Virus record (IMG/VR): IMGVR_UViG_3300050120_000231
Location: 1-29,419 of that record
DNA length: 29,419 nucleotides
DNA from: a virus
Reading direction: 5' to 3' (one strand)
The notes beneath the pieces are model-generated. The model saw only the letters and a program-made list of their open reading frames with translations, was not told where the DNA came from and did no database searches. Of the stretch, positions 9 through 26,206 are shown one piece after another; position 1 is the first letter of the stretch; every line of letters begins with the position of its first letter. The position numbers and the translations under genes were made by a program.

Positions 9-1745
9 GTGAATCATAGTGACATTATTGAGCAGTCAGAAAAACTGCTGGCTACAGGCGATCCTGAAGCACAATTTGTAGCGGCACAGCTGGCGTTAAG
101 CGTGTTGCCTGCAACATATTTTATTGAAAACTATCTGGAAGACAACGGAGGCCAACTTCAGAACCTCGATGGCTTCCCAATGATGCGCCCGATTTACGAT
201 CACATTCCTCAGCGATTGTTATTGAAATGTAGTCGTAAAACATTGAAGTCTACACTGTTAAGTAACTTTATATGTCTGAATATGATGAGATGGCAAAAGT
301 ACAATATGTTGTACGTAGGCCCACAAGAATTATCGGTAAAATATTTTTCGCAGAATTATGTTAATCCACGATTCAGTAGTAGAAGAGTAAAGCAGTTGTT
401 CAGAAAATGGACAAAGAATGACGTGTTTGAAAAAATTCTACAAGATTCAGGCTCCGCCTGTCTCTTTCGTTACTGCAGTGATGACGCGACACGACTTCGC
501 GGACCAGCTGTAGACCATATCATCTATGATGAGATTCAGAATATCGACGACAAGACGTTGCCGATTATCAATGAGTGTTTTCGTATGTCGAAGTACAAGA
601 GGCTTATGTTCGCAGGAACACCTCTCACGACCGACAACACGATTGAGACCCTGTGGCTCAAGAGCAACCAGCTAGAATGGGCTACTCGATGCGGTTGCGG
701 CCACTGGAATACCCTAACCCTTGACAATGAGCCTCTCAAGATGCTTACCCCTGCTGGGTATGCGTGTCCCAAATGTGGAAGGCTCATCAATACCCGTGAA
801 GGTGAATGGGTGTCATTCCGACCCCAGAACAAGGATTATGTCGGGTACCATCTGGCTCAGCCAATGCTGCCTCACTTCAACGATGTCAGTACCGAAGAAG
901 GTAGAAAAGAATGGAAAGAGTTTTACCTGACTGTTGCAAAGGGTGACCGAAGTGTCGCGCAAATCTTCAATGAGAATCTTGGTATCTCGTATGACATTGG
1001 CTCGAAGCCTATCACCGAAGAAGAACTCCGCAGACTCTGCACTCTCGGGCCTATCCGGGATGACAAGGGCCGTCTCAAGATCGTCGAAGACAATCGTAAA
1101 AAGTATCTCGCCTACACCGGAGGTGCTGACTGGGGTGTTTCCAACGTTACTTCCCGAACCGCTACCTGTATGTTGGCAGTCCAGGAAAACGGTATGATCG
1201 ACTGTGTCTTCGCAAAAGTGTTTCAAGACTTCGACTACAAAGATCAGATCAAAGAAATCGCAAAGATGTCCAATAACCTCAGGGCCAAGATGGCGGTTGA
1301 CTCAGGCCCTGACCCCCAGCGAGGCATCGAACTCGGCAGAATGACTGATCCTGGCCGTATCAACCTTGTTAGGTATGAACACGGTCGAGTCATTCAAAGC
1401 TGGAACGAACCTGCTGGGGCTTTTGATTGGACCCAACTGAGATGGTGTTTACATCGATCAGATTGCTTTACCATTTTATTTCAGTGGTTGAAGTCAGGTC
1501 GTATCAGATTCCCCAGGATTGAGGACATGGGCGATGCCTTCCAAGATATTCTCAATGTGTTCATCGAAGTCAAAGAGGTCTCTGAACGCCAAGAAATGTA
1601 TTACCGAAAGAAATCGGGCAAAACCGACGATTTTGCCCATGCGCTCCTGTATGCCTTGATGAGCATGTTGATGGAGATGGGAGACCCCTGTCTGAATGCA
1701 CCGTCTAGCGATGCAGATTCGTACCGGGGTGATCCAAACGACTAA
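9..1745 (+). CDS. terL: Terminase large subunit (DNA-packaging ATPase/nuclease)
   Basis: This is the motor that pumps phage DNA into the prohead and cuts the concatemer. The N-terminal ATPase half has a deviant Walker A around residues 74-82 (CSRKTLKST), a Walker B at 171-175 (IIYDE) and a coupling-motif-like AGT at 202-204. A four-cysteine zinc-finger-like insertion follows (C228, C230, C253, C256). The C-terminal RNase H-like nuclease half starts at GGADWG (D374), continues with AVDSG (D431) and ends with DDFAHALLY (D540/D541), the usual acidic residues. The length of 578 residues is normal for TerL. The start used is a GTG with no SD; the frame stays open to the window edge, so the true start may lie upstream. 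The gene converges on the endonuclease gene, and the two stop codons overlap. GC is about 33 % at 241-420 but near 55-58 % in sampled lines after 600. The family call is firm; the start is not. Confidence 0.93.
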   Translation: MNHSDIIEQSEKLLATGDPEAQFVAAQLALSVLPATYFIENYLEDNGGQLQNLDGFPMMRPIYDHIPQRLLLKCSRKTLKSTLLSNFICLNMMRWQKYNMLYVGPQELSVKYFSQNYVNPRFSSRRVKQLFRKWTKNDVFEKILQDSGSACLFRYCSDDATRLRGPAVDHIIYDEIQNIDDKTLPIINECFRMSKYKRLMFAGTPLTTDNTIETLWLKSNQLEWATRCGCGHWNTLTLDNEPLKMLTPAGYACPKCGRLINTREGEWVSFRPQNKDYVGYHLAQPMLPHFNDVSTEEGRKEWKEFYLTVAKGDRSVAQIFNENLGISYDIGSKPITEEELRRLCTLGPIRDDKGRLKIVEDNRKKYLAYTGGADWGVSNVTSRTATCMLAVQENGMIDCVFAKVFQDFDYKDQIKEIAKMSNNLRAKMAVDSGPDPQRGIELGRMTDPGRINLVRYEHGRVIQSWNEPAGAFDWTQLRWCLHRSDCFTILFQWLKSGRIRFPRIEDMGDAFQDILNVFIEVKEVSERQEMYYRKKSGKTDDFAHALLYALMSMLMEMGDPCLNAPSSDADSYRGDPND

Positions 1746-3801: not shown

Positions 3802-4347
3802 TTAACTCAATTGATCAAGATAATCGGTGGTACGATTAAGATGGAAGTGGAACAACTCTTCCAACGTTTTGTTCTTCTCACTATCGTCACTAGGAGGACA
3901 GACAGGCATTATCGCTGACGGAAACATAGTCGGAGGACTAGAAAATCCATGGTTGAAAAATATCTGTCCTACGTAGGCTCTAATTGTGTCATGGAACTGG
4001 ATGGGGCCATTGAGCAACAAAATAGCCTGAGCGAGTCCGAAAATGATTTCTTCAGGGTCCAGAGGTTCGAAATCTTCGAAACTGTCTGGAACATTACTAA
4101 ACTGATGGCAAATATTTTGAAATACTAACCAATCAGATTCAAACTGATGATCTGTCAATACGTGGATTGCGGCCTGAAGTTTATCGCTGTTGAGAGCGGT
4201 CATCGCCACTCCGTAATCTTCTTTGATTTGCTGTCGCACTAGCTCAGGCTCCCACTGAAACGCTGCAGTACCATAAGTGCGGACCAATGATACCAATAGG
4301 GCAGCGGCGGGGGCCTCAGGGTCTTTAAAACATTGAGCGGTGAACAT
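3802..4347 (-). CDS. Hypothetical protein, 181 aa
   Basis: I do not recognise this protein. It is acidic, predicted mostly helical, with a hydrophobic helix near residues 103-114 (IIFGLAQAILLLNG) that is too short and too interrupted to be a clear membrane segment. There is no signal peptide and no recognisable catalytic motif. It starts 8 bases after the stop of the upstream gene (4356-4595) and ends 29 bases before the 3D-domain gene, so it probably belongs to the same transcript. A GAGGG element lies rather far (about 14 bases) upstream of the ATG. Coding status is supported by length, dense packing and the lack of a competing frame. Confidence 0.75.
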   Translation of the reverse strand: MFTAQCFKDPEAPAAALLVSLVRTYGTAAFQWEPELVRQQIKEDYGVAMTALNSDKLQAAIHVLTDHQFESDWLVFQNICHQFSNVPDSFEDFEPLDPEEIIFGLAQAILLLNGPIQFHDTIRAYVGQIFFNHGFSSPPTMFPSAIMPVCPPSDDSEKNKTLEELFHFHLNRTTDYLDQLS

Positions 4348-5235: not shown

Positions 5236-5238
5236 ATT

Positions 5239-8342: not shown

Positions 8343-8712
8343 AATGTTCGAATACAAAATATCGGTAAATCCCCACCTTAAGACTCCGGGTAAACAACAC
8401 CTTCAGCTTCACCTGAGGGGTGCCACCACCATCAGGGTCTCTCGCCATCCACGGAGGTACTTCCCCAGCCTCCAGAACGCTGAAAGTCATAGGTTGACAG
8501 TCATACCCCTTGTTGATCAGGAACCAAATCTTGATGATGTCACCCTCTACAGAAGCGTCCAGCATATTGGATGCTTCTGGTACCAATATGGTTGTAGAGC
8601 CTGGTGCATTGAGAGCGTAGGAGACAATCTCCATATCGTTCAGGTGGGAGGGATGCAATCCTGCATCCTCCTGCACCACTTCCAACTTTTTCTCGGATTT
8701 CTTTTTTCTCAT
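8329..8712 (-). CDS. Hypothetical protein, 127 aa
   Basis: Not recognised. A lysine-rich N-terminus (MRKKKSEKK) is followed by a predicted beta-rich domain with TTILVPEASNML, IIKIWFLIN and LKVLFTRSLKVGIYRYFVF. There is no signal peptide. Its ATG overlaps the stop of the upstream 423-aa gene (ATGA), which shows translational coupling. A partner role for that protein is possible but is only inferred from position. Confidence 0.7.
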   Translation of the reverse strand: MRKKKSEKKLEVVQEDAGLHPSHLNDMEIVSYALNAPGSTTILVPEASNMLDASVEGDIIKIWFLINKGYDCQPMTFSVLEAGEVPPWMARDPDGGGTPQVKLKVLFTRSLKVGIYRYFVFEHYGQN

Positions 8713-9980
8713 CGTCTCAATGTTGTTACGGCTTCCAGCTTTGACCGGGTTTTATCCGCCAACGGAATACCGATCTCTTTGATATACTTCGCAGTCAACC
8801 GGAAAGAACTTTCGTACCCAGGAATAGGTTCAATCCAATTCTCCTCCTTGTAATGCTGAAACGCAAAATGCGCTTTAGCGTGTAGCAAGAATTCAAGCTC
8901 GGTAAACTTAGCTGTACCAAAAGTTTCTCCAAGACTACGGAGCAACGTATCGTCATTCAACTTAGTTTTCACAACCTCGTCAGGCATAACTAATGCTGCC
9001 GATTCCACTAACGTTTGAACGTCCTTGTTGTCCTTGAGAATACGAGCCATCTCTCTGTTGGAAGCTTTCTTCAAGACAGCCTTCGCGCCAGCCAGCTGAC
9101 CCCGATTAATTCCAGCGGCCTCCATAACTTCCTTATCAGAGAACTTCTCCAGGATCATTCGTTGAGCCAAACTACGCTGGGCTTTATTAGTAGGCTCGGT
9201 AGGCCCAAATTTCGTGATCTTAGGTTGACCCTTTTTCTTCTCTTCGATTCGATCTACGAAGTAGGTCCGATCCAATTCGATACCACTTAAATTAACCCCC
9301 ATCGTTACCATAAAATTCTTAGAACCTTCGTTCGAATAACGGCAGTAAAATGTTTCCTGGTAGCCTTCAGGGTAATACTCCTGGATAATCTCCAAGAACA
9401 TTTTCCGCATGATTTCACTACGACGGCCCTTCCCTAGCTCTTCCTCTTCCTTAGCTACTCGGTCATGAAAAGCTTCATATTCGGGAGTATGCTGCGAGGC
9501 ATGTCCACTGTGACGAGCCCGTTCTGCGAACGTAACAATCAAGCAATGAAGACGGTCGCGGTGTTCGTGCACAAACGCCCTTAACGTGCATAGTGACTCA
9601 GGATACCACCCACCACACAAGTCAAGATAGACTATATTGGCAGGAGACTCAATAAGATGATCCCATACGTTACCAAACTTATAATCGATGTTCAGCCAGT
9701 CGTAAGCAGGTGCCCCGATCTTCCCTTGAATACTACCTACACAATTTTTGTAAGTCGCATGGTTATACTCAAAAGCTTCCAAACGAAATGAAGCTTTTGA
9801 GACAGGAGAAATCTTCTCATAAAACTCTTTCTCCCATTGCCAGTCATTCCCAGGCAACGTCAATATATTCCAATGATTCTTATCGCAGTTTTCGGGATGT
9901 GAAACCAACTCCTTGATCTGCTCAATTAGCTCTGTCCCTACACTCCGCTTATCGGGAGAGTTGTCGTATGCGAATGGCAT
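8709..9980 (-). CDS. Unknown protein with Rossmann/methyltransferase-like motif and helix-turn-helix
   Basis: I cannot assign a named family. The N-terminal part reads like a nucleotide- or SAM-binding Rossmann fold. Residues 68-73 (EAFEYN) have an acidic residue after a strand, NIDY lies at 97-100, and a strand enters D120-L-C-G-G at 116-124 (IVYLDLCGG). This recalls class I methyltransferases, but the classic glycine-rich motif I is not clear. The middle (171-200) is charged and helical. Residues 280-303 (FSDKEVMEAAGINRGQLAGAK) look like a DNA-binding helix-turn-helix. The gene starts at an ATG overlapping the stop of the upstream gene (TAATG), without an SD, and is coupled at its end to the 127-aa gene. 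A DNA or RNA modification enzyme is plausible but unproven. Confidence 0.7.
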   Translation of the reverse strand: MPFAYDNSPDKRSVGTELIEQIKELVSHPENCDKNHWNILTLPGNDWQWEKEFYEKISPVSKASFRLEAFEYNHATYKNCVGSIQGKIGAPAYDWLNIDYKFGNVWDHLIESPANIVYLDLCGGWYPESLCTLRAFVHEHRDRLHCLIVTFAERARHSGHASQHTPEYEAFHDRVAKEEEELGKGRRSEIMRKMFLEIIQEYYPEGYQETFYCRYSNEGSKNFMVTMGVNLSGIELDRTYFVDRIEEKKKGQPKITKFGPTEPTNKAQRSLAQRMILEKFSDKEVMEAAGINRGQLAGAKAVLKKASNREMARILKDNKDVQTLVESAALVMPDEVVKTKLNDDTLLRSLGETFGTAKFTELEFLLHAKAHFAFQHYKEENWIEPIPGYESSFRLTAKYIKEIGIPLADKTRSKLEAVTTLRR

Positions 9981-10369
9981 TAGGCGATGTTGGTTGCGGG
10001 AGCCGGAAGATTACCGGTGGTCACCTGGTTGATATCCCCGACGAGAGTTTCGCCCTGAGGTTTGGCCTTGGCGATGACTTCGAGGGCACGTTCCACCGCG
10101 AGCTTAACTCCGACCTTACGGTTATAGGGATCGACGTTATCACAATGAGCATGACCCTCGGCTTCAATACCTTGGGGAGTCATAATTGAAACTACTGTAA
10201 GGCCACCTTTAGGATAAAATTCATCGTTGGTGGCATTGTAACTGGGGATAAGGAGTCTACGCCGCATAGACTTCTTACGGGATATGCGGTAGTGGATGAC
10301 CCGAACTTTGTTACCGAGCTGACGAAGCATATGAACTGGGCTGATGTAGTGACTATTGTTATTAGACAT
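9980..10369 (-). CDS. Hypothetical phage protein, 129 aa
   Basis: Unknown function. The central part (GGLTVVSIMTPQGIEAEG, then AHCDNVDPYNRKVGVKLAVERAL) has the pattern of small phage proteins in which a beta hairpin precedes a helix: G, then A-x-C, then D, then N-R-x-x-G-x-x-L-A-x-x-R-A. The N-terminus is basic (VIHYRISRKKSMRRR). I know this pattern only as an uncharacterised phage family. The ATG has no SD; a 7-base perfect hairpin lies 28 bases upstream. The stop overlaps the next ATG. Confidence 0.72.
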   Translation of the reverse strand: MSNNNSHYISPVHMLRQLGNKVRVIHYRISRKKSMRRRLLIPSYNATNDEFYPKGGLTVVSIMTPQGIEAEGHAHCDNVDPYNRKVGVKLAVERALEVIAKAKPQGETLVGDINQVTTGNLPAPATNIA

Positions 10370-10396
10370 ATAATGTATGGTAATGTTGTGTTGTTT

Positions 10397-10414
10397 GATG
10401 GGAAACGTCCCATC
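10397..10414. other. Short perfect hairpin between genes
   Basis: GATGGGA (10397-10403) and TCCCATC (10408-10414) pair perfectly around a 4-base loop, in the 61-base gap between the nucleotidyltransferase stop and the next minus-strand ATG. On the minus strand no U run follows, so it is not a typical terminator; on the plus strand a T-rich stretch follows. It may be an RNA processing or stability element. Confidence 0.4.
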
Positions 10415-10430
10415 TCTTTGTTTGTTGTGG

Positions 10431-11492
10431 CTATTTCATTGGAGCGCCACGGAACCACTTAATAAACGAGTCCTTAATGAACTCGGGGGTATAAATCTTT
10501 ACCCACTGATCGAAATCTCCGTCTCCAAAGACTTCGACTACTTCCTTCTTGAACTCACTGATTAGCTCACCTACCCGGTGAGGAAGAATTTCTGTACTGC
10601 AACTTTGCATCGCCCAAGCTTTCACGCAGTCCCCATTAAACTTCGTTTTCTGGTAACGGCGGTCCTCGCATTGGAGCTTGGCTTCGATCAACTTGCCTGC
10701 CAGTTGCGGAAAACCCCTGGTAATCCTAGGCAGATAGACCAACGGGTCATCAAGATAAGCAAACTTCCTGTACTTATGCTTATTGCTCTCAAGCCATTGG
10801 ATAAAATGCATGTAGCTGGTTCGCTTCCGATTCCTGGTACGATTGATATGATTCAACTTATCCAGGTTATACTGATCGGCGTTGAAGTACTTCGAGCTGG
10901 CCACCCAATCAAACATTTCTTCGAGAGTCGTGAACCCTTTATTGAACTTGGCAAAAGAAAACCCTCCGAATGTCAGAATTTCCTTTGGGTCTCTCGATAA
11001 CGTGACCGTGTCCAGGACTGCACTGTTGAGTGAATCGGACAACCCCACGGTTCTCTCTCGGATGACGTATTGAAGTCCTTCGTGACCATACTTAAGACCA
11101 AAACCGTGGTACACGCGACCACACAGATTACCGCAGTCATTCCACGAAAAATACGTGTAGGCTGCGGTAAAAATCTTAGGGTCTACAACAATGACATCAA
11201 CCTGAAACCCATCCACAGGAAAACTATGAGTATTGTTGTTGGAGTGGACCTGGTCAGTATGAAACGTCTCCTGAACCAACCTTCTATAATCGATGTACGG
11301 GACGCTGCTGACCAGCATATCGAGATCACCGAATGTTTCCTTGGCATGATAGGAAGGGATGACGTCCAGCCGAGTACCTGCAGGTAATGCGGTGGTCAGG
11401 ATACTCCGGACCTTGCCAACCAACTCCCAATACTCTTCTCTATTCAACCGCTTGCCTTCGTAGCCAAACTGTTTTATAGCGTTACCACCCAT
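10431..11492 (-). CDS. Pol-beta-type nucleotidyltransferase
   Basis: Enzyme of the polymerase beta-like nucleotidyltransferase superfamily, transferring NMP to an unknown substrate (RNA end, protein or antibiotic-like molecule). Seen in the sequence: a helix, then SYHAKETFGDLDMLV with G55-D56-L57-D58, the first two metal aspartates. A third aspartate is at about D99 in FQVDVIVVD, the typical spacing. The canonical G-S before the DxD is replaced by F-G-D. Downstream there is a basic helical region (NHINRTRNRKR) that could bind nucleic acid. The ATG at 11492 is preferred over the GTG at 11504, because it lies 1 base after the stop of the 47-codon zinc-ribbon gene and so is coupled. The gene shares a cluster with an RNA ligase, so a joint RNA-repair role is tempting, but it is inference. 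Confidence 0.78.
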   Translation of the reverse strand: MGGNAIKQFGYEGKRLNREEYWELVGKVRSILTTALPAGTRLDVIPSYHAKETFGDLDMLVSSVPYIDYRRLVQETFHTDQVHSNNNTHSFPVDGFQVDVIVVDPKIFTAAYTYFSWNDCGNLCGRVYHGFGLKYGHEGLQYVIRERTVGLSDSLNSAVLDTVTLSRDPKEILTFGGFSFAKFNKGFTTLEEMFDWVASSKYFNADQYNLDKLNHINRTRNRKRTSYMHFIQWLESNKHKYRKFAYLDDPLVYLPRITRGFPQLAGKLIEAKLQCEDRRYQKTKFNGDCVKAWAMQSCSTEILPHRVGELISEFKKEVVEVFGDGDFDQWVKIYTPEFIKDSFIKWFRGAPMK

Positions 11493-11493
11493 G

Positions 11494-11637
11494 TCAGTTA
11501 CCACACCAAGGGCAGATGGGCTTGCCCGACGATGTCCAGTTTAAAGTGTTTCCACACCTGTGACACAGACCCAAGGCCTGCACAATGCGTTTATACCAGT
11601 AGTAGGCTCGGTATCTAAATTTTTGAATTATACTCAT
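11494..11637 (-). CDS. Small zinc-ribbon protein, 47 aa
   Basis: A short gene found by reading the minus strand between two longer genes. It starts ATG at 11637 and stops TGA at 11494-11496. Residues 1-20 are basic and aromatic (KFRYRAYYWYKR); residues 25-28 are CHRC and 42-45 are CPWC, each followed by G-N. This makes a symmetric two-knuckle zinc ribbon with a 13-residue spacer. It is coupled on both sides: its ATG overlaps the stop of the MazG-like gene (ATGA), and its stop is 1 base before the nucleotidyltransferase ATG. The perfect fit between neighbours and the paired C-x-x-C-G motifs are the evidence. It probably binds nucleic acid or a protein partner. Confidence 0.8.
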   Translation of the reverse strand: MSIIQKFRYRAYYWYKRIVQALGLCHRCGNTLNWTSSGKPICPWCGN

Positions 11638-11909
11638 CGGTTATTTTTCTTCATGACAATGTCTTTATGGATACAGAGTGCAATGGCGATGACCTGTGCA
11701 AGCTCTTCATCCAGGTGGGCAAGTGATCTATTGGACGCGCGTGCCCACGTGATATCTTTTACCTCATCAACTTCTTCAAGGAGAAGTGCATAGCCTTCAT
11801 GAAGGCTTTTTATTTCATATTTCTTAGTGGAAATTCTATCTAGCTCAAATTCTACAGCCTTAAGAAATTTATTGTAAACCGGGTCTTTGAGACGTTTAGT
11901 TTGATTCAT
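11634..11909 (-). CDS. MazG-like (all-alpha NTP pyrophosphatase-like) protein
   Basis: All-helical protein of 91 residues resembling phage MazG-like nucleotide pyrophosphohydrolases, which hydrolyse (d)NTPs to monophosphates or clean up nucleotide pools. Key features are HEGYALLLEEVDEV with E45, E46 and E49 (the E-E-x-x-E metal motif), and a second acidic helix, LAHLDEELAQVIAIALCI, with D67, E68 and E69. The length is short, as in the minimal phage forms. The ATG at 11909 is chosen over a GTG at 11921 that lies against the terminator T run. It is the first gene after that terminator and is coupled to the zinc-ribbon gene (ATGA). Activity is inferred from the motif pattern. Confidence 0.65.
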   Translation of the reverse strand: MNQTKRLKDPVYNKFLKAVEFELDRISTKKYEIKSLHEGYALLLEEVDEVKDITWARASNRSLAHLDEELAQVIAIALCIHKDIVMKKNNR

Positions 11910-11921
11910 ATTTTTTGGCAC

Positions 11922-11964
11922 AAAAAACCCGTCTGGTGCGCTGATCGTGGGAAGCGTGACGGGT
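11922..11964 (-). terminator. Rho-independent terminator (minus strand)
   Basis: Reading the minus strand: ACCCGTC (11958-11964) pairs with GACGGGT (11927-11933), with an inner CGCT/AGCG pair (11953-11956 with 11939-11942) around a 10-base loop. A run of T follows directly (11922-11927 as A on the plus strand). It should end transcripts from the 350-aa gene and separate them from the MazG-like cluster. Confidence 0.7.
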
Positions 11965-11979
11965 GTTGTTTAAAGGGCG

Positions 11980-12027
11980 GAGACCGCCAGCTAGACGGTC
12001 TCGGGAACTCCTCCTACACGTGGTAGG
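11980..12027. other. Two further hairpins in the gene-free spacer
   Basis: GAGACCG (11980-11986) and CGGTCTC (11996-12002) form a perfect 7-bp stem with a 9-base loop. CCTAC (12013-12017) and GTAGG (12023-12027) form a 5-bp stem right after the stop codon at 12032. With the terminator they fill the 110-base spacer. No promoter, tRNA fold or credible open frame was found here. They could stabilise the 3' end of the upstream mRNA or form a small RNA. Confidence 0.5.
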
Positions 12028-12031
12028 TGAG

Positions 12032-13084
12032 CTAAATTGATTTTAGTCCTGACAACTCACGGAGCAACGCTACGTCAGAACGAGGCATCGTAGGCATGAG
12101 GTCAGCTAGAGCTTGTTTGTCCATCGGGTCTACTTCAATACCGAACGCCTGACGATAATGTTCGGCGCTTACCTTTTGAAGGTCGGTTACACGATAATTT
12201 TGGCCACCGGCTTCAATCACATCAGTGAGTTGGGCGACTTTCTCTGCGGTAATGGTAAAGAAACGATCAACTGGGTCTCCCAAGAACCGGGCAGTGTCAG
12301 GATGATCCCAAAGACCTTGATTCTTCTCGGTGTAAAAGCACACCTCAGCAATCTTCATGACATCTTCATTACTATCGATCTGACTGGCGAGCTTAGACAA
12401 TTCACCCAGATAAAGGTCTTTGGCTTCCGCAGTCTTGAGACGAGGCTGACGACGTCTCAGCTCAGCCTTTACGATCTCAGGAGTGGAAAAGCACATTGAA
12501 GCGTACTTGGCTACCAAGTCGGGAATCTCGTCGATCCCCATCTCTTTAGAAGCCTTGACCAGGTCCTCGGCGATCTTCGCACGAGCTACCATAGGAAAAC
12601 TCTGGGTATTAGTAGCAAACTGTTGGGCTGCCAACGTGAGGTCAGCAGCCGTCTTGTACGGGAACAACTCCAGTACGGTGCCGTCTAGGTCCGTAGCGCT
12701 GGCGTACTTTAACTGGTAGTCAGAGGCTTGCTTCTGATTCAACTCGGCAGAATACGCTACCAAATCAGGACTGATCCCGAAAATATCGGCTGCCTGTTTG
12801 ATCTTGGCTTCAAGGCGTTCAACATAGCCCTTGCCATGAAGTTTCTCCAGACCTGCACGCTTCTGTACAAAATAGACGTTGGAAACAAATGTACGGGCTG
12901 GAGTATTGATCGGATAAGTCTTACGTCCAGAGTCAGCAAAGGCTTCCTTTGGAAGGGTCTGAAGGGTCTCGCTGTCGTCTACAGGTGCGTCCTGTACGTA
13001 ATCCGGTACCGAGGAAGCGGATTTGAGAAAATTGTAAATTTCAGCACCGCTGAAGTCGGAAGACTGTTCGTATTTTGTTTTCAT
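12032..13084 (-). CDS. Putative virion or assembly protein, 350 aa
   Basis: Function not recognised with certainty. Residues about 44-58 (LPKEAFADSGRKTYPI) recall a motif (LPDSAFA, R-x-YPI) seen in several phage structural and head-maturation proteins. After residue 70 the protein is almost entirely helical and rich in A, K, E and L, with repeated Y/S-A-S and KTA segments. That would suit a scaffold, decoration or internal head protein. It ends in a leucine-rich helix (LMPTMPRSDVALLREL). There is no signal peptide or enzyme motif. The ATG has no SD. It is transcribed away from the plus-strand gene at 13140 and is followed by three hairpins including a terminator, so it is probably monocistronic. 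A TATAAG hexamer lies upstream but has no good -35. Confidence 0.72.
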   Translation of the reverse strand: MKTKYEQSSDFSGAEIYNFLKSASSVPDYVQDAPVDDSETLQTLPKEAFADSGRKTYPINTPARTFVSNVYFVQKRAGLEKLHGKGYVERLEAKIKQAADIFGISPDLVAYSAELNQKQASDYQLKYASATDLDGTVLELFPYKTAADLTLAAQQFATNTQSFPMVARAKIAEDLVKASKEMGIDEIPDLVAKYASMCFSTPEIVKAELRRRQPRLKTAEAKDLYLGELSKLASQIDSNEDVMKIAEVCFYTEKNQGLWDHPDTARFLGDPVDRFFTITAEKVAQLTDVIEAGGQNYRVTDLQKVSAEHYRQAFGIEVDPMDKQALADLMPTMPRSDVALLRELSGLKSI

Positions 13085-13103
13085 GTAGTTTGGTTAAAAG
13101 GCA

Positions 13104-13133
13104 TTGACTCGCGGGCGATTACCCTCTTATATT
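13104..13133 (+). promoter_or_regulatory. Sigma70-type promoter for the plus-strand orphan gene
   Basis: TTGACT at 13104-13109, a 17-base spacer and TTATAT at 13127-13132 (or TATATT with an 18-base spacer) make a near-consensus promoter. The -10 ends 6-7 bases before the ATG at 13140, so the predicted transcript starts on or next to the start codon and would be leaderless. No SD is present. Confidence 0.65.
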
Positions 13134-13139
13134 CGTTCC

Positions 13140-14519
13140 ATGAGGATAACGGAATTCATCAGTAGGGTCAACCTGGAAAGATTTTTGAAACTGCAGAAGG
13201 ACGACAACTACTACTATCGTAGACATGACTATTTGGGGTGGATAGCTTATTTTAGAAACGGTGGAGAATATGCGGGTTGTCTTCTTGATCGGACTAGAAC
13301 CCATCACTGGCCTACGCTGTATCAATATGTAACCCAACAGCACCCTGAATGTCTCGATACGCCAATCGTGTACAATAAAAAGGCTGATGAAGCTTATCGA
13401 GAAAATATTCATCGATATGAACTTGTTAGCAACGTTTTCGATATAGCCCAAAAACACATGAACGAATTTGTTACACATTACAATATTCCAGGGTTGGTAC
13501 CATTTACCCGTAGATGTACCCTTAAAGACTGGCTCATTACCCGAGGATGCAAAGGATGTCCTGATAACGGATTTGGATCGATCTCTGATAGTGTCTACCA
13601 GGACTACCCCGATCTAACATTCCCTAAGGACTATTACTACCAACGCAACTTACTGGTTCCTAGTTGGACAGCCAAGGGTATTTTATTTTCACTTGAGGCA
13701 TGCCACCCTGAGGCTCCCAACGAACGGGAGCTAGTATACTGCATGGACCCTAATATCCCAATGGGTTGGTATGGGGACCTGAACGCTCCGGTCGTAGAAG
13801 ACCTTAATCACCTGGCCATCAAAAAAGGACTGGTCTGGTCACCTCACGCTCGATCATTTCTGGAACACCCTGTTGTTATTGACCCGGAACTGTCTCCTGC
13901 TAAATGTATGCAACTATGGGTCACCCCTAGGATCGAATTCGCCCGGAATCCTGCCGAGATCATCAAGGAGCGTGGAATGGAGGATTACATAAAGGAAAAC
14001 CTCTATAAGCTAAGTAAAAACCAGCTAAACACCCTAGAGAACAACGTGGGGACATCCTTTCAGAACGACTGGTTGTCGCTCAGGAAAGAATGCCGTGATA
14101 TAGGTGGTAAAAATTACCAGCTACGTTCGGATGGATATTACGTGACCCATTCACCTCAAGATATTAGGATTACGGACTTCACTCTCAATTTGTTGAAAGT
14201 GGTGTCACCATTTAAAGGGAAGATGCAGCTTCATGTAGAGATCAATCGAGATCAGACCTGCCACACTGTCATCATGACATACCAAAATTTCCAAAAAGGA
14301 AACTTCGTGTTCAAGCTTAAAGAACACCTTATGGAACTGGGCATCGCCAAGGCGTTTGTACACCCCAGCTACGAATATATGCTGGCTGACATAGCCACCG
14401 AATTTTGGCCAGAATTAGTCACCAGGGAAAGACCCGAAGAGCTAGAAAAAAAGACTCCGGAAACCCCTGAAAAAAATAGTGAGGTTGCTGGAAACCAATT
14501 GGCTTCCGCAACGGTATAA
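13140..14519 (+). CDS. Orphan plus-strand protein, 459 aa, possibly primase/helicase-accessory-like
   Basis: The only convincing plus-strand gene after the terminase. The frame can be read from a TTG at 13104, but that base is the first of the -35 box, so the ATG at 13140 is chosen. The N-terminal part is rich in aromatic residues (DNYYYRRHDYLGW). A cysteine cluster (CTLKDW, then RGCKGCPDN) lies near residues 127-143. The region of about 340-440 resembles, by eye, the beta-rich module found before the helicase part of some phage primase-helicases (Y-x-V, then R-I-T-D-F-T-L-N-L-L, then the QNFQKGNFVFKLKEHL segment). No Walker motif follows, so a helicase part is missing. The C-terminus is a low-complexity E/P/K tail. 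Function is unknown; the primase-like hint is weak. Confidence 0.75.
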   Translation: MRITEFISRVNLERFLKLQKDDNYYYRRHDYLGWIAYFRNGGEYAGCLLDRTRTHHWPTLYQYVTQQHPECLDTPIVYNKKADEAYRENIHRYELVSNVFDIAQKHMNEFVTHYNIPGLVPFTRRCTLKDWLITRGCKGCPDNGFGSISDSVYQDYPDLTFPKDYYYQRNLLVPSWTAKGILFSLEACHPEAPNERELVYCMDPNIPMGWYGDLNAPVVEDLNHLAIKKGLVWSPHARSFLEHPVVIDPELSPAKCMQLWVTPRIEFARNPAEIIKERGMEDYIKENLYKLSKNQLNTLENNVGTSFQNDWLSLRKECRDIGGKNYQLRSDGYYVTHSPQDIRITDFTLNLLKVVSPFKGKMQLHVEINRDQTCHTVIMTYQNFQKGNFVFKLKEHLMELGIAKAFVHPSYEYMLADIATEFWPELVTRERPEELEKKTPETPEKNSEVAGNQLASATV

Positions 14520-14566
14520 GAAGCTAATAACTTCTTACAACGTACTATACCACAAACCAATACAAA

Positions 14567-14593
14567 GTACTGGGAGGGGTCGCCTCCCAGTAC
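14567..14593. terminator. Bidirectional terminator-like hairpin
   Basis: GTACTGGGAGG (14567-14577) and CCTCCCAGTAC (14583-14593) form a perfect 11-bp stem with a 5-base loop, midway between two convergent genes (stops at 14519 and 14612). T runs are weak on both sides (TTTGTATTGG on the minus strand, none on the plus). The position and stem strength still make termination the best explanation. Confidence 0.65.
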
Positions 14594-14611
14594 CAAGCAA
14601 CCAAACAGAAA

Positions 14612-15133
14612 CTATTTCACCAAAACCAAGTCTGCGGTAGACTGCGCCTTATCAGGATGATCGTGGTTACAACCTTCCTGACACTTCTGATGGCCTTCCT
14701 GTTCAGTACCATTCTGAGGGCCATCTGGGACTCCGTGACAAAGAGCCATCTCTTTCATGGCCTTTTCAATGTCCGCCTGGGTTGGAGGAGGCAGCTCACC
14801 CATCAAATCCTTGACGATAGCGTTACCCCACTCCTGGCAAGCCTTAAGAACATTGGCGTTAAGTTCTGGAGAGACCTTCATCATCTTGACGCCAATGGGG
14901 CTCTGCATGAATGTGTCGAACTCAGACAATTCCAGTTCGGTAAACGCCTCGTCGTAAAACGGAACAATAAGTTCAATCACTGCCGAATCATCCGCCTTGC
15001 CGAGGTATTTGGCACGAAGTTCTTCCTGATCTGACGTGGTCAGTGTGATATAAGTTCGAAGATTCGCGCCGAGAGACAGCGCACCAGTGCCTTGCAGAAT
15101 TTGGACGATGAGGTCCCGTTTCGTTTGAGTCAT
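14612..15133 (-). CDS. DUF2059-like protein with Cys/His-rich tail
   Basis: Residues about 57-103 match the DUF2059 pattern: VPFYDEAFTELELSEFD, then TFMQSPIGVKMMKVSPEL. DUF2059 proteins are usually small bacterial envelope proteins of unknown function; here there is no signal peptide, so a cytoplasmic or virion location is more likely. After a proline-rich linker the tail has H148, C151, C155, H157 and H159 (HQKCQEGCNHDHPD), which could bind a metal ion. The N-terminus is helical. The gene has its own extended -10 promoter about 50 bases upstream and ends at a strong hairpin, so it seems to be a single-gene unit. The ATG has no SD. What it does for a phage is unknown. Confidence 0.7.
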   Translation of the reverse strand: MTQTKRDLIVQILQGTGALSLGANLRTYITLTTSDQEELRAKYLGKADDSAVIELIVPFYDEAFTELELSEFDTFMQSPIGVKMMKVSPELNANVLKACQEWGNAIVKDLMGELPPPTQADIEKAMKEMALCHGVPDGPQNGTEQEGHQKCQEGCNHDHPDKAQSTADLVLVK

Positions 15134-15191
15134 ATTTGTTAGTCTGAATAATGTTTTAGGGATGGCAAGAAGTTACCATTTACCTTTAGAT

Positions 15192-15200
15192 ATTATACCA
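15192..15200 (-). promoter_or_regulatory. Extended -10 promoter for the DUF2059-like gene
   Basis: On the minus strand the sequence is TGGTATAAT, a perfect extended -10 (TG-N-TATAAT; the hexamer is 15192-15197). No good -35 is seen, which extended -10 promoters do not need. Transcription would start near 15185, about 50 bases before the ATG at 15133. Confidence 0.6.
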
Positions 15201-15227
15201 GTAAACAAAATGTTCCCCAGGAGGGGG

Positions 15228-15818
15228 TTACAACATTGGACGCAAAGGGTTGAAAGGAAGCGGGTAGGTAGGTTCAACACCAGTTCTGGGAAGACGACCA
15301 GGCAAACAAGTATCGGCAGAATCCGGATGAGGGCTGGATGGAGTGTAACGAATCCCGATGGGCAAAGTGATGAGCAAAATTGTACGATCTTTGACCCCTG
15401 TTCCACTTCCAATCAATTCACTAGCAATGACGTCCATAAAATATGTTCCGGCAAAAAGATCGGCAGTTACATCTGAAGGAATCCAGATTTGGTACTGACT
15501 GGTGTTGGGTGAGAAATATAACCCGTTATTGAGTATACCTTGCCACAACACTTCGATTGCAAATTCACTCTTCTTCAAAATGCATTTTATATCCCAGCCG
15601 GTGGGTGCGATAAGGGCTCCATCAACGCACAATTGTGCATCGTAAACGATGGTCTCTCCCTGTGAAAACACAGGAACCGGTGGGGTAGCTGGTACAAACG
15701 GAATACCAGGAAATCCAAACTCTGCAATAGGGGATGCTGGAACCGGTTCCGGTACGTTTAATCGAGGACGAAGAATAGTCCTGTTACAACCTGGTTTCTG
15801 GCTAGAAGGTATCTCCAT
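15228..15818 (-). CDS. Small beta-rich virion-type protein, 196 aa
   Basis: Probably a structural or fibre-associated protein. It begins with a proline-rich segment (about 18-50: RLNVPEPVPASP, then FVPATPPVPVF), then a beta sandwich of about 90 residues. The order is VYDAQLCVDG, GWDIKCILKK, EVLWQGILNNGLYF, YQIWIPSDVTADLFAGTYFMDVIA, then a final strand. Similar sandwich proteins, in which a strand pair precedes TxxLxAGxYxxD, are common near phage tail and neck genes. The C-terminus is proline-rich and looks disordered. It is the last gene of the virion block and ends 95 bases before the DUF2059-like gene. A TAGAAT hexamer (15825-15830) ends 6 bases before the ATG, with no SD, so a leaderless start is possible. 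Confidence 0.68.
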   Translation of the reverse strand: MEIPSSQKPGCNRTILRPRLNVPEPVPASPIAEFGFPGIPFVPATPPVPVFSQGETIVYDAQLCVDGALIAPTGWDIKCILKKSEFAIEVLWQGILNNGLYFSPNTSQYQIWIPSDVTADLFAGTYFMDVIASELIGSGTGVKDRTILLITLPIGIRYTPSSPHPDSADTCLPGRLPRTGVEPTYPLPFNPLRPML

Positions 15819-15822
15819 ACTG

Positions 15823-16140
15823 TTATTCTACGCATAGCTGGGTCAGTTTACCATTCAATTTCTGGAACCAACAAACCTTATCCATACCCAAAATGACCCT
15901 AATACTACGCCAATCTTCCACCGTTAGGTTGGCTAGTGCGGATTCAATCTGAGGTCTAGCGTTAGCAAATGAGTTGATTCCACTATGACGGCCCTGGCAT
16001 GTACCGCATGACTTTTTAGGGTTATTGAGGGAATGGGCCAGGCCCCGCAAAGGAGTGAGCCCCGAGATGTCGAGTAACCGAGGGTGATTATCGAGTAGTT
16101 TAGCCATTTGGGCCACACTTGAAATGATAAGTTGTTTCAT
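15823..16140 (-). CDS. Hypothetical protein with one CxxC motif, 105 aa
   Basis: Not recognised. The N-terminus is helical, then TPLRGLAHSLNNPKKSCGTC with C45 and C48, then a helical part (IESALANLTVEDWRSIRVIL) and more cysteines near the end (C90, C103). The single C-x-x-C may bind zinc or form a disulfide. Its ATG overlaps the stop of the fibre paralogue upstream (TAATG), and its stop is 4 bases from the next ATG, so it is locked into the virion operon and is probably a minor virion or assembly protein. Confidence 0.68.
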   Translation of the reverse strand: MKQLIISSVAQMAKLLDNHPRLLDISGLTPLRGLAHSLNNPKKSCGTCQGRHSGINSFANARPQIESALANLTVEDWRSIRVILGMDKVCWFQKLNGKLTQLCVE

Positions 16141-17012
16141 TAGGTTGGTACAGGTTTACAGAGATCACTCATGGCGAAATCGAGTCCTACAAAAATTGAG
16201 TGTGGGTTAGCCAAGACGGAGTTTGAAGCAGCTATGTCAATGGCGTCAATAAAATTGGTAGTGTCTTGTCCGTCGATAATATTTACGTTTAACCCTTGAG
16301 TCAGCGTAAATTTACCAGAACTGTCCGGTCCTACTCCGTTAATAAAGGAGATAATGTGGGTACAATCAGTCAAGGTGGGATCGATAAACTGGTCAGAACA
16401 TTGTAACGGGATACCGTATCCTTGCTCAACAGTCAGATCAATCAATTGACCTCGGACGTTCAACCTAACATTGTAACCCTCGTAGAACGTGATGTCCCCT
16501 GTGAATGTAGACGAAGCCCCTGGTGGGGTCAACGGAAGCGAGGGCCGATACACCGGCACTACATCTGTACCAGATATATACTCTGGGGCTACCGTAACCT
16601 GAGTCACCCCTTCCCACATATTACTAATTTCGTAGACCAATGAGGGTTCCACCTGTAAGGTGGTGAATATATGGGTACCAGACGGTACGTTAAGAATATC
16701 CTGTCCTATGACCAAGAAGCTTCCATTCGAGATTCTACCAGTGTAGAAAGGAAACTGAATAGTAGTCTTGTCCGATACCGTGAACACATTGGACCCCGTG
16801 AATGTAAAGGTGACTGCGTTACCCGACACCAAAATAGATAGCAGCTGTACCATATCGGTCAGAGGATATCCAGGAATGTAGAGGTTGAGATCGAGCAACA
16901 AGTTTGTGGTAAGGACATAACCCAAGTTAGATGTTCTACTACTGTTTTCTTGTAGCGGATACATTCTTCGACCATTTTCTGTGGTCCAATCAATAATTTG
17001 ACTCTGTGCCAT
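16140..17012 (-). CDS. Tail-appendage paralogue 1, 290 aa
   Basis: First (by coordinate) of five tandem paralogues. The N-terminal module is DWTTENGRRMYPLQENSS followed by LLLDLNLYIPG and a beta-rich stretch. The middle part has TGDITFYEGYNVRLNV and GYGIPLQC, a glycine and cysteine context repeated in paralogues 3-5. Near residue 222 it reads ISFINGVGPDSSGKFTL, a motif also present in paralogues 4 and 5. The protein is almost all beta strand, with no signal peptide, as expected for a fibre or baseplate-attached part. The start overlaps nothing upstream (gap of 1 base) and lacks an SD. The specific role (receptor binding or structural) is unknown. Confidence 0.75.
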   Translation of the reverse strand: MAQSQIIDWTTENGRRMYPLQENSSRTSNLGYVLTTNLLLDLNLYIPGYPLTDMVQLLSILVSGNAVTFTFTGSNVFTVSDKTTIQFPFYTGRISNGSFLVIGQDILNVPSGTHIFTTLQVEPSLVYEISNMWEGVTQVTVAPEYISGTDVVPVYRPSLPLTPPGASSTFTGDITFYEGYNVRLNVRGQLIDLTVEQGYGIPLQCSDQFIDPTLTDCTHIISFINGVGPDSSGKFTLTQGLNVNIIDGQDTTNFIDAIDIAASNSVLANPHSIFVGLDFAMSDLCKPVPT

Positions 17013-17013
17013 A

Positions 17014-17736
17014 TTAAGAAGACATCGTTGTTGCTATGGAATCGGCCGCTACTGAAGTGTTTCCCACGAGACTGATACTAAGCCCTCCACCGCCCTGAGT
17101 CGATACCTTGATAATGTCATTGCTACCCAGAAAGATATTGTTGTCTACGGGTGCCACCAAATTCAGAAGTTTGAGCGCAGGAGATGGAGGAGCATCTGGA
17201 AGCTTGAAGTGTCCCACACCGTTGAAGGCAATCCAGTTATCTGATGGATTCGTTGTAAAAAACATACTGTCCATCGATGGATCACCCAGCAATTCAATCG
17301 TTCCAAATCTGCCCTGTAGTGAAAATAATCCCGCCGTGGACGGAACCGATCTTACCACAGATGGTATAAATGGAACTCCAAAAGTCAGAAGCTGGCTCAC
17401 CTTGTTGTTCCAAAGGTCAACCACACCATCGCCAAAAACAATTCGACCAAGATAACGTTTATTGTAGCTGTTTAGGTTATCGTAGATCGATACATGTCGA
17501 ACGCCAGCTGTATAGCTAGACTGTAAATACGTGAATGACAAAGTGAGCAAATCAAACTGGATCGTGATCGTCAAATCAGTAGCAGACACCAAAATAGATT
17601 GTAGTACGGGGACAAAGCCATCAAATTGTATGAGTGTTGCGTCTACAATCAAATTATTAATAACACTGGTGTTGGGCTGAAGAGGGTAGTGAGTCCTTCC
17701 AAGTTCGTTTTGATAAGATAAAATGCCGGTTACCAT
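17014..17736 (-). CDS. Tail-appendage paralogue 2, 240 aa
   Basis: Second paralogue. The N-terminal module is LSYQNELGRTHYPLQPNTS, then VDATLIQFDGFVPVLQSILVS, where the QSILVS segment matches LLSILVS of paralogue 1. Paralogues 1 and 2 are therefore probably the closest pair. The later part is beta-rich with PPSPALKLLNLVAPVDNNIFLGSND near residues 180-205 and a glycine/serine-rich end. It lacks the ING-V-x-PD motif. It has one of the few good SD sequences in the block (AAAGGGA about 8 bases before the ATG), preceded by a 58-base gap, so translation is started independently here. Confidence 0.74.
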   Translation of the reverse strand: MVTGILSYQNELGRTHYPLQPNTSVINNLIVDATLIQFDGFVPVLQSILVSATDLTITIQFDLLTLSFTYLQSSYTAGVRHVSIYDNLNSYNKRYLGRIVFGDGVVDLWNNKVSQLLTFGVPFIPSVVRSVPSTAGLFSLQGRFGTIELLGDPSMDSMFFTTNPSDNWIAFNGVGHFKLPDAPPSPALKLLNLVAPVDNNIFLGSNDIIKVSTQGGGGLSISLVGNTSVAADSIATTMSS

Positions 17737-17794
17737 GGTCTATCCCTTTGTTTGTGGTCTTCGTAACACAGTGGTTCAACATCTTTTCGCATAG

Positions 17795-19069
17795 TTAACT
17801 CTCGGTGATGTTGTAGAACATGGTAATCATAAGGGTAGGGCTACCGCTAGTGGAAGCTGTATCAACATAGAATTTAGATGACGGTACAAAGGCGCTATCC
17901 GCAGTAGGAACCAGAACAATACCTTCCGATGTAATTGTCCTGGTATTAGGTGCAATTGATGTTGAATCAACCAAGAAGTTGGCCTGTATAGAGCCTGTAG
18001 AAGTCTGGAACCGGATTCTGGAAATAGCTGCGGCCTGTCCAGACAATAGCAGCGGGGTATCCACGGAAGGATCAAAAATTGTATGACTGCCGTTCGACGG
18101 GTTGGTGAGGGTTGCTACGTAAGTCAAAATATACGACGGCCATACCTTGTATTCAGACGCCGTGGCTTCCAAAAAGTCAACTACTGGAGTCTGGGATTTC
18201 GTAAAGTAAGCCAAATCTCCAACAAAACTATCTGCAGCCCTATTAATCAAAAAGTTGGGATTGACTGGTGGTAACTTTTGCGTTTGGTCGCTGCAGAGCA
18301 TCGGCAAATCCAAGTTAGGAGTCATAATGTTTATAGCTCCATCGGTACTATCCTGGATAAACGTAATAGGGTCCACTCCAAACAGGTAAATGTTACTATC
18401 ATTCGCAATTGTAGCGTCATGAGGATACGGAGTTGCGTTATTGATCTGCAGAATCTCTGGAGTAGGGCAATTCCTAAACTCGGAAGAAAAATCAGCTAGG
18501 CTCAATATGGAAGAATTATCTTGCACCGTAAAATTGAATACGTTCGTAGGAGCTGCCGTAGAGGTTTCCACAACGTTAATCAGATTCCCAAAATTAACGT
18601 TACCAGTCAGAATAATATTAGACAAAATTAAACTAGTGACAGGAGGTCGAACATAACAAAACACGACAGAAGGCTCCAGGACTGCATCGGTATAAGCTAA
18701 TGAGTAGAATCCTACGTAATTACTGATATTGGTCACACCACCAAACACCATGTAACCGTCAGCGCCAGGTACAAATGCCGTCAGCCTGACAGCCTGAAAA
18801 TCCTGTGTAATCTGTGCCGAAAAAGTTCCAATTACAACAGAGTCATCCGATTCAGCGTCATAATGCTGAACCGTCACTGACACATAACCATTTCGAAGAG
18901 TGGCCTGAGAAACAAATAGATTGCTCGTGGCCAGCTGAGTAGTTAGTGAAACCGATGCAATCAAATCATTTGGCAACTCAAGCCCATTATTTGACAATAA
19001 GCTAGTCCCTTGTTGAAAGGGATAACGGCGATACAGGTTTTTGTTAAGAAAATCGAGATTTGAGGCCAC
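17795..19069 (-). CDS. Tail-appendage paralogue 3, 424 aa
   Basis: Third paralogue. The N-terminal module is LDFLNKNLYRRYPFQQGTS, followed by LELPNDLIASVSL and the paired strands typical of the group. In the middle, LTGNVNFGNLINVVET matches the TGDITF and QGNVTI segments of paralogues 1 and 5, and LPMLCSDQTQK matches LQCSDQFID of paralogue 1. The C-terminal 150 residues are beta-rich with no recognised domain; they could be a knob or receptor-binding tip. It starts with GTG and has no SD. A 38-base gap separates it from paralogue 4. Confidence 0.75.
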   Translation of the reverse strand: MASNLDFLNKNLYRRYPFQQGTSLLSNNGLELPNDLIASVSLTTQLATSNLFVSQATLRNGYVSVTVQHYDAESDDSVVIGTFSAQITQDFQAVRLTAFVPGADGYMVFGGVTNISNYVGFYSLAYTDAVLEPSVVFCYVRPPVTSLILSNIILTGNVNFGNLINVVETSTAAPTNVFNFTVQDNSSILSLADFSSEFRNCPTPEILQINNATPYPHDATIANDSNIYLFGVDPITFIQDSTDGAINIMTPNLDLPMLCSDQTQKLPPVNPNFLINRAADSFVGDLAYFTKSQTPVVDFLEATASEYKVWPSYILTYVATLTNPSNGSHTIFDPSVDTPLLLSGQAAAISRIRFQTSTGSIQANFLVDSTSIAPNTRTITSEGIVLVPTADSAFVPSSKFYVDTASTSGSPTLMITMFYNITES

Positions 19070-19107
19070 GTATTACAATTCCATACAATGTCACATTAGT
19101 CAAGAGG

Positions 19108-22100
19108 TCACGGAATCATAAACGATAGTGCCTGTGTCCCTGTTCCAGCTCCGTTAGTAGCCGTTACAGTGCATGATGTAGTACCTGAAGCGGCGATACC
19201 AGTTATGATACCTGTTGAAGTATCTAGGCTCGCCCAACTTGGTAATCCGGTTGAGCCATAACCTGTGGGGGTATTGGACGCAACTAATTGGAATGAAAGC
19301 GATTGACCATTTGTACCCGTAGCTACTGGCGAACTCACAATAACTGGAGGCTCTTGGTTGACAGTAATCGTCAACGTCATGGTTCCTGCCCCTATCGCGT
19401 TGGTTGCAGTCAGCAATACCGAAGAGCTTCCGAACCCTGAAGGAATTCCATAAATCTGCCCCGACGAGGTATCGAGGTACAGCCCAGTTGGCAACGTACC
19501 AGAGCTGTAGCTTGTGGGATAGTTAGAGGCTATGATCTGATAGGAACTTGATAATCCTTGATTAAACGTGACTGTAGAAGCACTTGTTATCACCGGAGCT
19601 ACAGTTGCGGAAATTGACAACGATAATAGTTGGGTATCATAACCAAAAGCGTTAGTGGCCGTGATGTCAAAGCTGTATACCCCGATGGTTGATACAGACC
19701 CAGAAATATGACCAGTGGCTGCGTCCAGGACAAGTCCTACAGGAAGTGTGCCGGTGGAAAAACTTGTGGGATCATTAGTGGCCGTAATGTTGTAACCCAC
19801 TGAACCTCCTTGAGAAAAAGATACACTCAAGGAACTGGTTATAACCGGTGAAGACGATCCTACCGTTAAGGTCAACGTTTCAGGCCCAGTACCTGCCGTA
19901 TTAGTCGCACCTAGCGTCACTGAAAATACGCCAGACTCAGATGCTATCCCACTGATCACCCCAGTAAAGGTATCAACATTAAGATTGGTTGGTAAGCCAC
20001 TGGCTGAAAAGCTGGACGGAGAATGTGCTGCAGTGATGGTGTAACTAAAGAATGCACCTTCCGCTACAGCCGCAGTGTTAGGGCTCGTGATAACTGGAGC
20101 GATCAATGAAGTGGTCAGCACTAGCGTCTCGGTATCGGTTCCTGCCCCATTAGACGCCGATATCAAAATATCAGTAACTCCATGAGTTGTCGGCACCCCG
20201 CTGATTACTCCCGTAGAAGAATTCAATGTCAACCCTGTAGGTAATCCCGATACACCATAACGCGTAGGGTGTTGGGAGGCGGTAATGGTGTAGGTGAATG
20301 AATCACCCTGGGTTGCTATGGTCGTTAATGAACTGGTGATCGATGGGGCAATCAAAGAAGCAACGATATCAATCGTAATAGTCTCGGTGTCAGAGCCTGC
20401 AGCATTTGTTGCAGTAACAGCCGTCGAATAATTTGTAACCGTTGTAGGAACACCGCTGAGCACTCCTGTAGCCGTATCGATAGTTACACCAGCAGGCAAA
20501 CTTGTTGCACTCCAACTTGTAGGAGAATTTGTGGCAGACACCTGGTAGAAGAAAAACACCCCTACACCACCTGAAACGGTTTCAGGTGTGATTACAGGAA
20601 CGGCCACCACCTTAACAAGCATGTTAAACTGTGTCGTAGCAGTTGAAGTCAAAATATTTGAAGTAATCAAATAGTTGGTGGATGTAGATTCGGTCGGTGT
20701 TCCCGACAAATTATAGGTAGCTGGAGGTATCGCCGTGTCTACAGTCATCCAGGAAGGTAATGTGGTGGTATCGTAGACTACCAACGCAGTAGTGTATCCA
20801 GGTATGTTGTAAATGAACGGTGTTCCCGACAACGCTACTAATGTGACTGTATCGTTATCGGTCGAATCACAATCCGTGCTTTCCACCGCAATCGTCTGTC
20901 TTCCACCTACAGTCACGTCGTTAATCAAAGAAGGGGATATGGCACCAGGCCAATCCCGATTGACAGTTACCCCAATGGTTCCACTAATCATACCACAAGG
21001 CACAAACAAAATTATTTCAACAACAGCGGTTTCTTTACAATTCAAAGTTCCGGATAGTGAGTTAAGGATAACGCCATCACCATAGCGAATCTTAGTAGTG
21101 TTAGGGATAATCTCTACTGTTCCTGAAAGAGCCAAATCTACCTCGTAGGTAATGGTGTCACCCGTTGGGTTGGCGATGCCGATACTTATCGGGACAAAAG
21201 TTCCATATTCTCCTAACTCGTTCGTACCCTCCATGGTATTGTAACGGATAATACTGTATGGAATCACAAGACCTTCAACGCTGGTGTTGTAAGCTACGAT
21301 AGTATCATTGAGAGTATTGTAGATACCTTCGTCAGCTATCAAAAAAGTAGCAGAACCTGATCCTATCAAAGCGTCAGCGACAATAATGTCAGAGTCATCC
21401 AACACCTCCACAATTGTAGTGACCTGAGTTGATCCAGAGTATTGAATCGTGATCGTCTTGCCTTCATGAAAATACTTTATGAATCCTGATTGGCCTGAAA
21501 GTGTTGATGTAAACAAAGTCGCAGCAATCGTAGTAGCGGCTGACGTGGCAGTAAAATCCCCTGATGTGTGGTCAGATTCCACAGCTGCTCCATAAAGCTC
21601 GAACATACCATCTTGAACACGCGCCATGTAATCGGCGAAAGCGTTCATATTAACAGGAGCGCACTTCGCTTGATAGTTGTTTTGAACCAAGAATGAATGT
21701 CCCACAGATAGCGCAGCAAATGTATTAGGGGACTGGTACGGAATCGAAAAAGGCGTATATGCAGTAAGAACATCGGCGTATAAAGTCAAATCAGCTTCAC
21801 TCAACAATGTTACGGAATAGCTGTCGTCAAACTGCAAAGCGATATTACCATTACTGTCGGGAACACGTCCATTCAGTGTAGCCAGTTTAGTCGAATCCAG
21901 TTCCGGACAACTGGTATACAGTCCTTTTCCTGCGCGAGGAATAACACCAAGTGAAAGTCCTGCAGCCAGCACTGCGTCGATATTGGCTCCAGGAATCAAA
22001 TTCACCGTAGTGCCTGCCTCGAAAGTATGAGCCGTAACAATTGGATAATTATTGTTAACTACCAGGGATTTAACTGTAGGACTATAAGGTGTTATTACTG

Positions 22101-22509: not shown

Positions 22510-22515
22510 CGTGAT

Positions 22516-23409: not shown

Positions 23410-23413
23410 AAAT

Positions 23414-25615: not shown

Positions 25616-25616
25616 A

Positions 25617-26201: not shown

Positions 26202-26206
26202 TTTTT

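Follow-up and report, generated by a model that had tools for sequence, protein, structure and literature searches.

Enzyme folds that are retained without their chemistry are already known in DNA replication. According to two reports, the N-terminal domain of vertebrate Twinkle descends from TOPRIM-primases but no longer has primase activity, and its roles lie in capturing DNA and in the function of the helicase (PMC7231222, PMC9723800). A second set of relevant proteins comes from mobile elements: according to one study, Cch contains DUF927 and is related to SaPIBov1 Rep, SaPI Rep proteins are self-loading initiator helicases and Cch is a distant homologue of one of them (PMC7581432).

Here we analyze a phage gene whose 459-residue product, P459, is predicted to combine elements of both. 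On balance we lean, by a modest degree, toward reading P459 as a non-catalytic, DNA-binding replication adaptor with a primase fold, encoded by a core gene of a large phage family.

Gene layout of the window

The window, meaning the whole stretch of DNA that was analyzed, is a complete 29,419-base IMG/VR virus record and, by its gene content, a piece of a larger phage. It starts with the terminase large subunit (TerL; 9..1745, plus strand), whose named relatives are only distant (best identity 25.5%), and nearly all later genes lie on the minus strand, P459 excepted. The P459 reading frame runs from an ATG at 13140 to a stop ending at 14519 on the plus strand. The initial annotation had described it as a lone plus-strand gene, and this description is correct: no other credible gene between 1742 and the end of the window is on the plus strand.

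Three neighbors, all on the minus strand, frame the locus. A conserved 181-aa protein (3802..4347) lies between TerL and a 350-aa protein of unknown function (12032..13084), which is the invariant head-to-head partner of P459. Directly behind P459 is a DUF2059-domain protein (14612..15133). DUF2059 is conserved in bacteria according to its Pfam description, and the protein has no match in 17 relative contigs, making this gene, more than P459, a candidate accessory gene.

The window also carries accessory genes elsewhere. About 7.7 kb (4356-11921) separate its 181-aa and 350-aa genes, compared with roughly 0.1-2.4 kb in relatives; this real accessory cluster of the window includes an RNA ligase, a GIY-YIG/AP2 homing endonuclease and a nucleotidyltransferase-like ('DNA polymerase', phrog_24943) protein. 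Directly behind TerL, positions 1742-3232 encode a homing-endonuclease-like protein with a GNAT-like stretch, a 42% homologue of which is found elsewhere in a relative (G011).

Conserved gene order and divergence of P459

With the 733-aa protein (23414-25615) as query, we obtained one relative contig, where a P459 homologue (25% identical, E 1e-36) stands beside a 45%-identical 350-aa gene in the same head-to-head orientation. Searches with the 350-aa gene and with TerL yielded 10 and 13 contigs, respectively, 15 in total and some near-identical to each other. A P459 homologue, 18-25% identical, lies head-to-head with the same 350-aa gene in all 14 contigs that hold the site, each of which was found through a neighboring gene (the 350-aa gene or TerL) and not through P459. 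Thirteen of these homologues were detected by BLAST and one (L027) as the gene's first part at a contig end, read directly in the sequence; the fifteenth contig (L030) ends just past TerL and was left out. Searching with a P459 alignment gave 31 contigs, and the order TerL (plus), 181-aa (minus), 350-aa (minus), P459 (plus) holds in 31 of 31, where the presence of P459 is given by construction but the order is not, and where the outermost genes are cut by the contig end in some. A pattern scan of genome_contigs produced 109 matches, with no relative among them.

P459 is also lone on its strand in the relatives. Within the fetched flanks of 27 loci, TerL and P459 are the sole ORFs of at least 400 aa on their strand (TerL being cut in some). 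As a candidate operon partner we considered a 184-190-aa ORF that comes next on P459's strand, and rejected it: it is present in only three of the 27 loci (L052, L057 and L062), its L062 copy has an HNH endonuclease domain and it looks like a mobile insert.

We compared how P459 and its neighbors have diverged, using 22 sequences from which near-duplicates and fragments had been excluded. The pairwise divergence of P459 correlates with that of TerL, the 350-aa protein and the 181-aa protein (Spearman 0.87, 0.88 and 0.89, respectively; 231 pairs), and the correlation is still 0.72-0.78 within the 19-member main clade alone. In that clade, mean identity is the same for P459 and the 350-aa protein (0.66 each) and higher for TerL (0.79). 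The window's P459 is an outlier, sharing 18-25% identity with all others, compared to 46-53% for its TerL and 35-53% for its neighbors. The dN/dS of P459 is about 0.03, a value from a single independent usable pair with saturated dS.

The initial annotation had proposed a self-contained moron cassette and suggested comparing synteny to see whether it is present or absent as a unit. That proposal conflicts with what we found, namely the same neighbor and orientation in every testable contig, the same order throughout the larger set and no indication that the gene is acquired or lost as a unit. Together, the fixed synteny and a divergence that tracks TerL and the neighboring genes argue that P459 is a vertically inherited core gene of its family.

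The family consists of large phages, with contigs of up to 204 kb. In the 189.6-kb contig of G011 (L066 and L075), the last 200 nt recur near the start with an offset of 444, hinting that this genome is terminally redundant and near-complete; an exact 644-nt overlap of its ends was looked for and not found. The GC skew of one 189.6-kb relative is flat near P459 and TerL, and no origin was inferred from it.

Signals flanking P459

A near-consensus sigma70 promoter had been reported at the start of the gene. The match itself is there: TTGACT at 13104-13109 is followed after 17 nt by TTATAT at 13127-13132 on the plus strand, and with an 18-nt spacing to TATATT the agreement is 10 of 12. As a sign of a promoter it is weaker than first described. 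Our scan of 10001-29419 found 35 promoter-like sites compared to 31.5 ± 5.9 in shuffled sequences, with the P459 site among the two best, and 1.2% of all 81-nt stretches in the contig score 10 of 12. Such sites are thus no commoner than in shuffles, and none of the P459 upstream regions in 23 relatives scores 10 of 12, their best scores being 7-9.

The sigma70 consensus may not even apply. SD-like motifs precede 3 of 27 starts in the window, 18 of 199 in one relative (L066-L075) and 3 of 68 in another (L008-L011), which is approximately the frequency estimated for chance and suggests that the host dispenses with SD sequences and so may not be E. coli-like. Taken with a Tenacibaculum phage as the best tail match, the same counts hint, short of proof, at a host in Bacteroidota. 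This phage family may also read its own promoters, because one relative encodes a protein with sigma-70 region 3 in its virion module (L005:3744-4379, E 6.9e-10). An annotated sigma factor likewise lies within the structural module of Salmonella phage Arash.

P459 and the 350-aa gene share a divergent intergenic stretch of 55 bp (13085..13139), where the corresponding gap in 23 relatives is 14-39 bp. Main-clade relatives (L044, L046, L052, L057 and L060) have in common a ATTATACT-like word immediately ahead of the P459 start codon; on the other strand it becomes TATAAT before the 350-aa gene and may be the -10 element of that gene. No iterons were found beside P459 in the window, and only chance-like pairs in three relatives.

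Behind the P459 stop, the 11-bp perfect hairpin described in the initial annotation exists (14567..14593, arms 14567-14577 and 14583-14593). A T-run follows it on the minus strand only, which argues against a terminator of P459; if the hairpin is an intrinsic terminator, it would serve the leftward gene that stops at 14612. Independent expression of P459 is possible.

Predicted fold of P459

P459 has no match of weight in Pfam, PHROG, NCBIfam or PDB sequences. Single-sequence look-ups by INPHARED tblastn, IMG/VR patterns and NCBIfam returned nothing, phmmer against the PDB gave one row (E 0.83) and the CHC2, DNAG_N and Toprim profiles did not match. Pfam's WH_DRP matched 22 residues in one of 24 family members (E 1.1e-5), short of the family's cut-off, and was taken as chance. 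A P459 profile, whole or trimmed to the primase region, likewise aligned to DnaG and phage primase-helicases without significance (hhalign probability 0.5% against nine DnaG-type primases and 0.1% against three phage primase-helicases).

An AlphaFold model of the full window P459, built from a 24-row alignment, reached a pLDDT of 80.3 and a pTM of 0.63, and a model of the first 304 residues of a relative's protein (L061) reached 90.7 and 0.85. For the L061 model, Foldseek places the Aquifex primase first (E 2.3e-4); the next ten rows, all with E above 1e-3, are likewise DnaG-type primases, T4 primase or T7 gp4. In VIA-align, rows 1-22 for this model are all DnaG, T7 gp4, T4 gp61 or Twinkle (Z 8.1-4.5), and the next row, an unrelated protein, has Z 3.3. 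No Foldseek row for the full window model reached E<=1e-3, and the weak rows were unrelated folds (PX domains and tyrosine phosphatases).

Residues 1-277 of the window model align with the Aquifex primase 2au3 (Z 7.8, 235 residues, 7.5 A), and residues 317-431 align with Cch (Z 10.1, 97 residues, 3.3 A) and SaPIBov1 Rep (Z 9.4, 99 residues, 3.0 A). VIA Z values of 6-8 fall in the tool's middling range, with an rmsd of 5-8 A. The first 300 residues are thus predicted to adopt a DnaG-type primase fold. Residues 1-67 (13140..13340), with 2au3 aligned from residue 1, would occupy the position of the zinc-binding domain, and residues ~88-303 (13401..14048) would form an RNA-polymerase-domain/TOPRIM-like region. 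Residues 317-431 (14088..14432) are predicted to resemble the N-terminal domain of DUF927-type helicases. The protein ends about 30 residues past this domain and matches no AAA family, indicating that an AAA+ motor with Walker motifs is absent. Both modules can precede the motor in primase-helicases, so that the pair is more convincing than each module alone.

The initial annotation had suggested a weak resemblance of the C-terminal half to a primase-helicase accessory module without any helicase motif, and the models indicate that this suggestion was right in kind, with the N-terminal part resembling primases as well. It had also called for remote-homology searches and structure prediction; of the two, the sequence profiles gave nothing significant and the predicted structure matched primases.

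Catalytic residues and a separate primase

The 24-row P459 alignment contains no conserved set of Cys/His zinc ligands in the zinc-domain region. We mapped the catalytic positions through motif anchors and secondary structure, not superposed coordinates. The column mapped to DnaG R221 is an invariant E, the column mapped to E265 varies among E, A, G, P, R and K, and the DxD column reads D-x-E/D only in the window and L063/L064, the other 21 of 24 rows lacking it. By this motif-anchored mapping, the TOPRIM glutamate and DxD appear not to be conserved in the family. Only the window's own P459 is acidic at each of the three mapped TOPRIM positions (E220, D247 and E249).

The family has another primase. 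A separate 302-aa primase lies near a DnaB-like helicase in 15 of 17 contigs, the exceptions being G008 (43 kb) and G016 (79 kb), and its CPTC, CFIC, VVEG and acidic LD-x-E motifs are intact in all 12 sequences read. The DnaB-like helicase was found in 14 of 16 contigs (G001 not counted) and is missing in the same two. We rejected P459 as the phage's main primase on these grounds; because the family already has a motif-intact primase, P459 would be its second primase-fold protein.

Proposed role and alternative explanations

In the adaptor reading, P459 would be folded like a primase-helicase that stops short of its motor. Its zinc-binding-like domain would have lost the zinc ligands, its RNA-polymerase/TOPRIM-like region would no longer conserve the acidic residues that bind metal, and its last domain would be the one that stands before the AAA+ motor of DUF927-type helicases. 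Such a protein would make no primers. We infer that it binds DNA, most likely single-stranded DNA, a fork or an end, and that it may serve the replication proteins encoded by the phage itself as an adaptor or loader with no enzymatic activity, a part comparable to that of the inactive primase domain in vertebrate Twinkle toward its helicase. Expression of P459 probably starts from a short divergent promoter region of its own.

Its location counts against a replication role, as P459 adjoins the TerL region and not replication genes. The partner of P459 may be a helicase, a primase or a terminase, the predicted fold favoring replication and the location favoring packaging. More tentatively, and with some doubt, we propose that a free-standing pseudo-primase is a core part of a large phage family in which a motif-intact primase is encoded as well; here a primase-helicase would have been cut to two DNA-handling modules that serve as an adaptor at forks or DNA ends and that, lying next to TerL, might connect replication with packaging.

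The location invites an explanation by packaging, whereby a primase-derived DNA-binding fold would assist TerL in selecting or holding the DNA end. P459 sits among virion genes, on TerL's strand and in its neighborhood in 31 of 31 contigs, and the two are the only large ORFs on that strand within the flanks of the 27 loci. However, opposite-strand genes separate them in every contig, so that they do not form one operon, and any contact between P459 and TerL is hypothetical. Small terminase subunits also look different from P459. We consider a packaging role unlikely.

Alternatively, P459 could be an active, very divergent primase, the second of the phage. Its predicted primase fold would fit, as would the D-x-E/D at the DxD position in the window copy and two others and the E at the E265 position in the window copy. 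Activity is nevertheless improbable when the mapped positions are lost in the other 21 of 24 rows, zinc ligands are absent and relatives encode a motif-intact primase beside a DnaB-like helicase.

We give a similarly small chance to a counter-defense or host-takeover protein, a primase mimic that would sequester host replication or defense factors. A non-catalytic fold of a host-like enzyme is consistent with mimicry, the window P459 is far more divergent than its neighbors and a lone strand would permit separate timing. Against this, P459 evolves no faster than the 350-aa neighbor in the main clade, and PADLOC, applied to three members, was empty for two and gave a lone Csm3 row (E 0.033) for the other. 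Fixed synteny is also unusual for counter-defense genes.

A moron, that is, a recently gained and independently expressed accessory gene, is very improbable despite the lone strand, promoter-like match and hairpin, since P459 is fixed in all testable relatives and co-divergent with its neighbors, the promoter match is not conserved and the terminator is on the other strand.

The adaptor reading would carry further meaning. If P459 does bind DNA and aid the phage's helicase or terminase, it would be a new kind of replisome part. As a single gene at a constant location it would then offer a clear genetic handle, and it gives a lead to function in its large-phage family.

Comparison with known systems

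P459 is an ordinary core gene within its own family, yet an unusual kind of protein. Our literature search on inactive phage primases turned up no enzyme fold without its chemistry that was described as a free-standing phage core gene, which is thin evidence of absence.

Compared to DnaG-type primases (Aquifex DnaG 2au3, E. coli DnaG 1dd9/1eqn, T7 gp4 and T4 gp61; Z 4.7-8.1), P459 is predicted to have the same domain order of a zinc-binding-like domain, an RNA-polymerase domain and a TOPRIM-like region. It differs in the absence of zinc ligands, in basic and acidic catalytic residues that are not conserved, in a shortened TOPRIM and in a lack of sequence similarity. The CHC2-TOPRIM primase fusions of the Bacteroidota phages laban6-1 and Ingeline_5 resemble P459 in having primase domains followed by a long C-terminal part, but their primase domains are intact by Pfam, unlike those of P459, and their hhalign comparison with P459 was not significant.

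The likeness to SCCmec Cch and SaPIBov1 Rep is confined to the predicted resemblance of residues 317-431 to their N-terminal domain, whereas P459 has neither their AAA+ motor nor their C-terminal DNA-binding domain. Twinkle, whose human form appears in the VIA list with Z 4.5, offers a precedent for the state proposed for P459, a primase fold that has ceased to make primers. In Twinkle this fold is joined to the helicase, whereas P459 is free-standing and also has a Cch-like domain.
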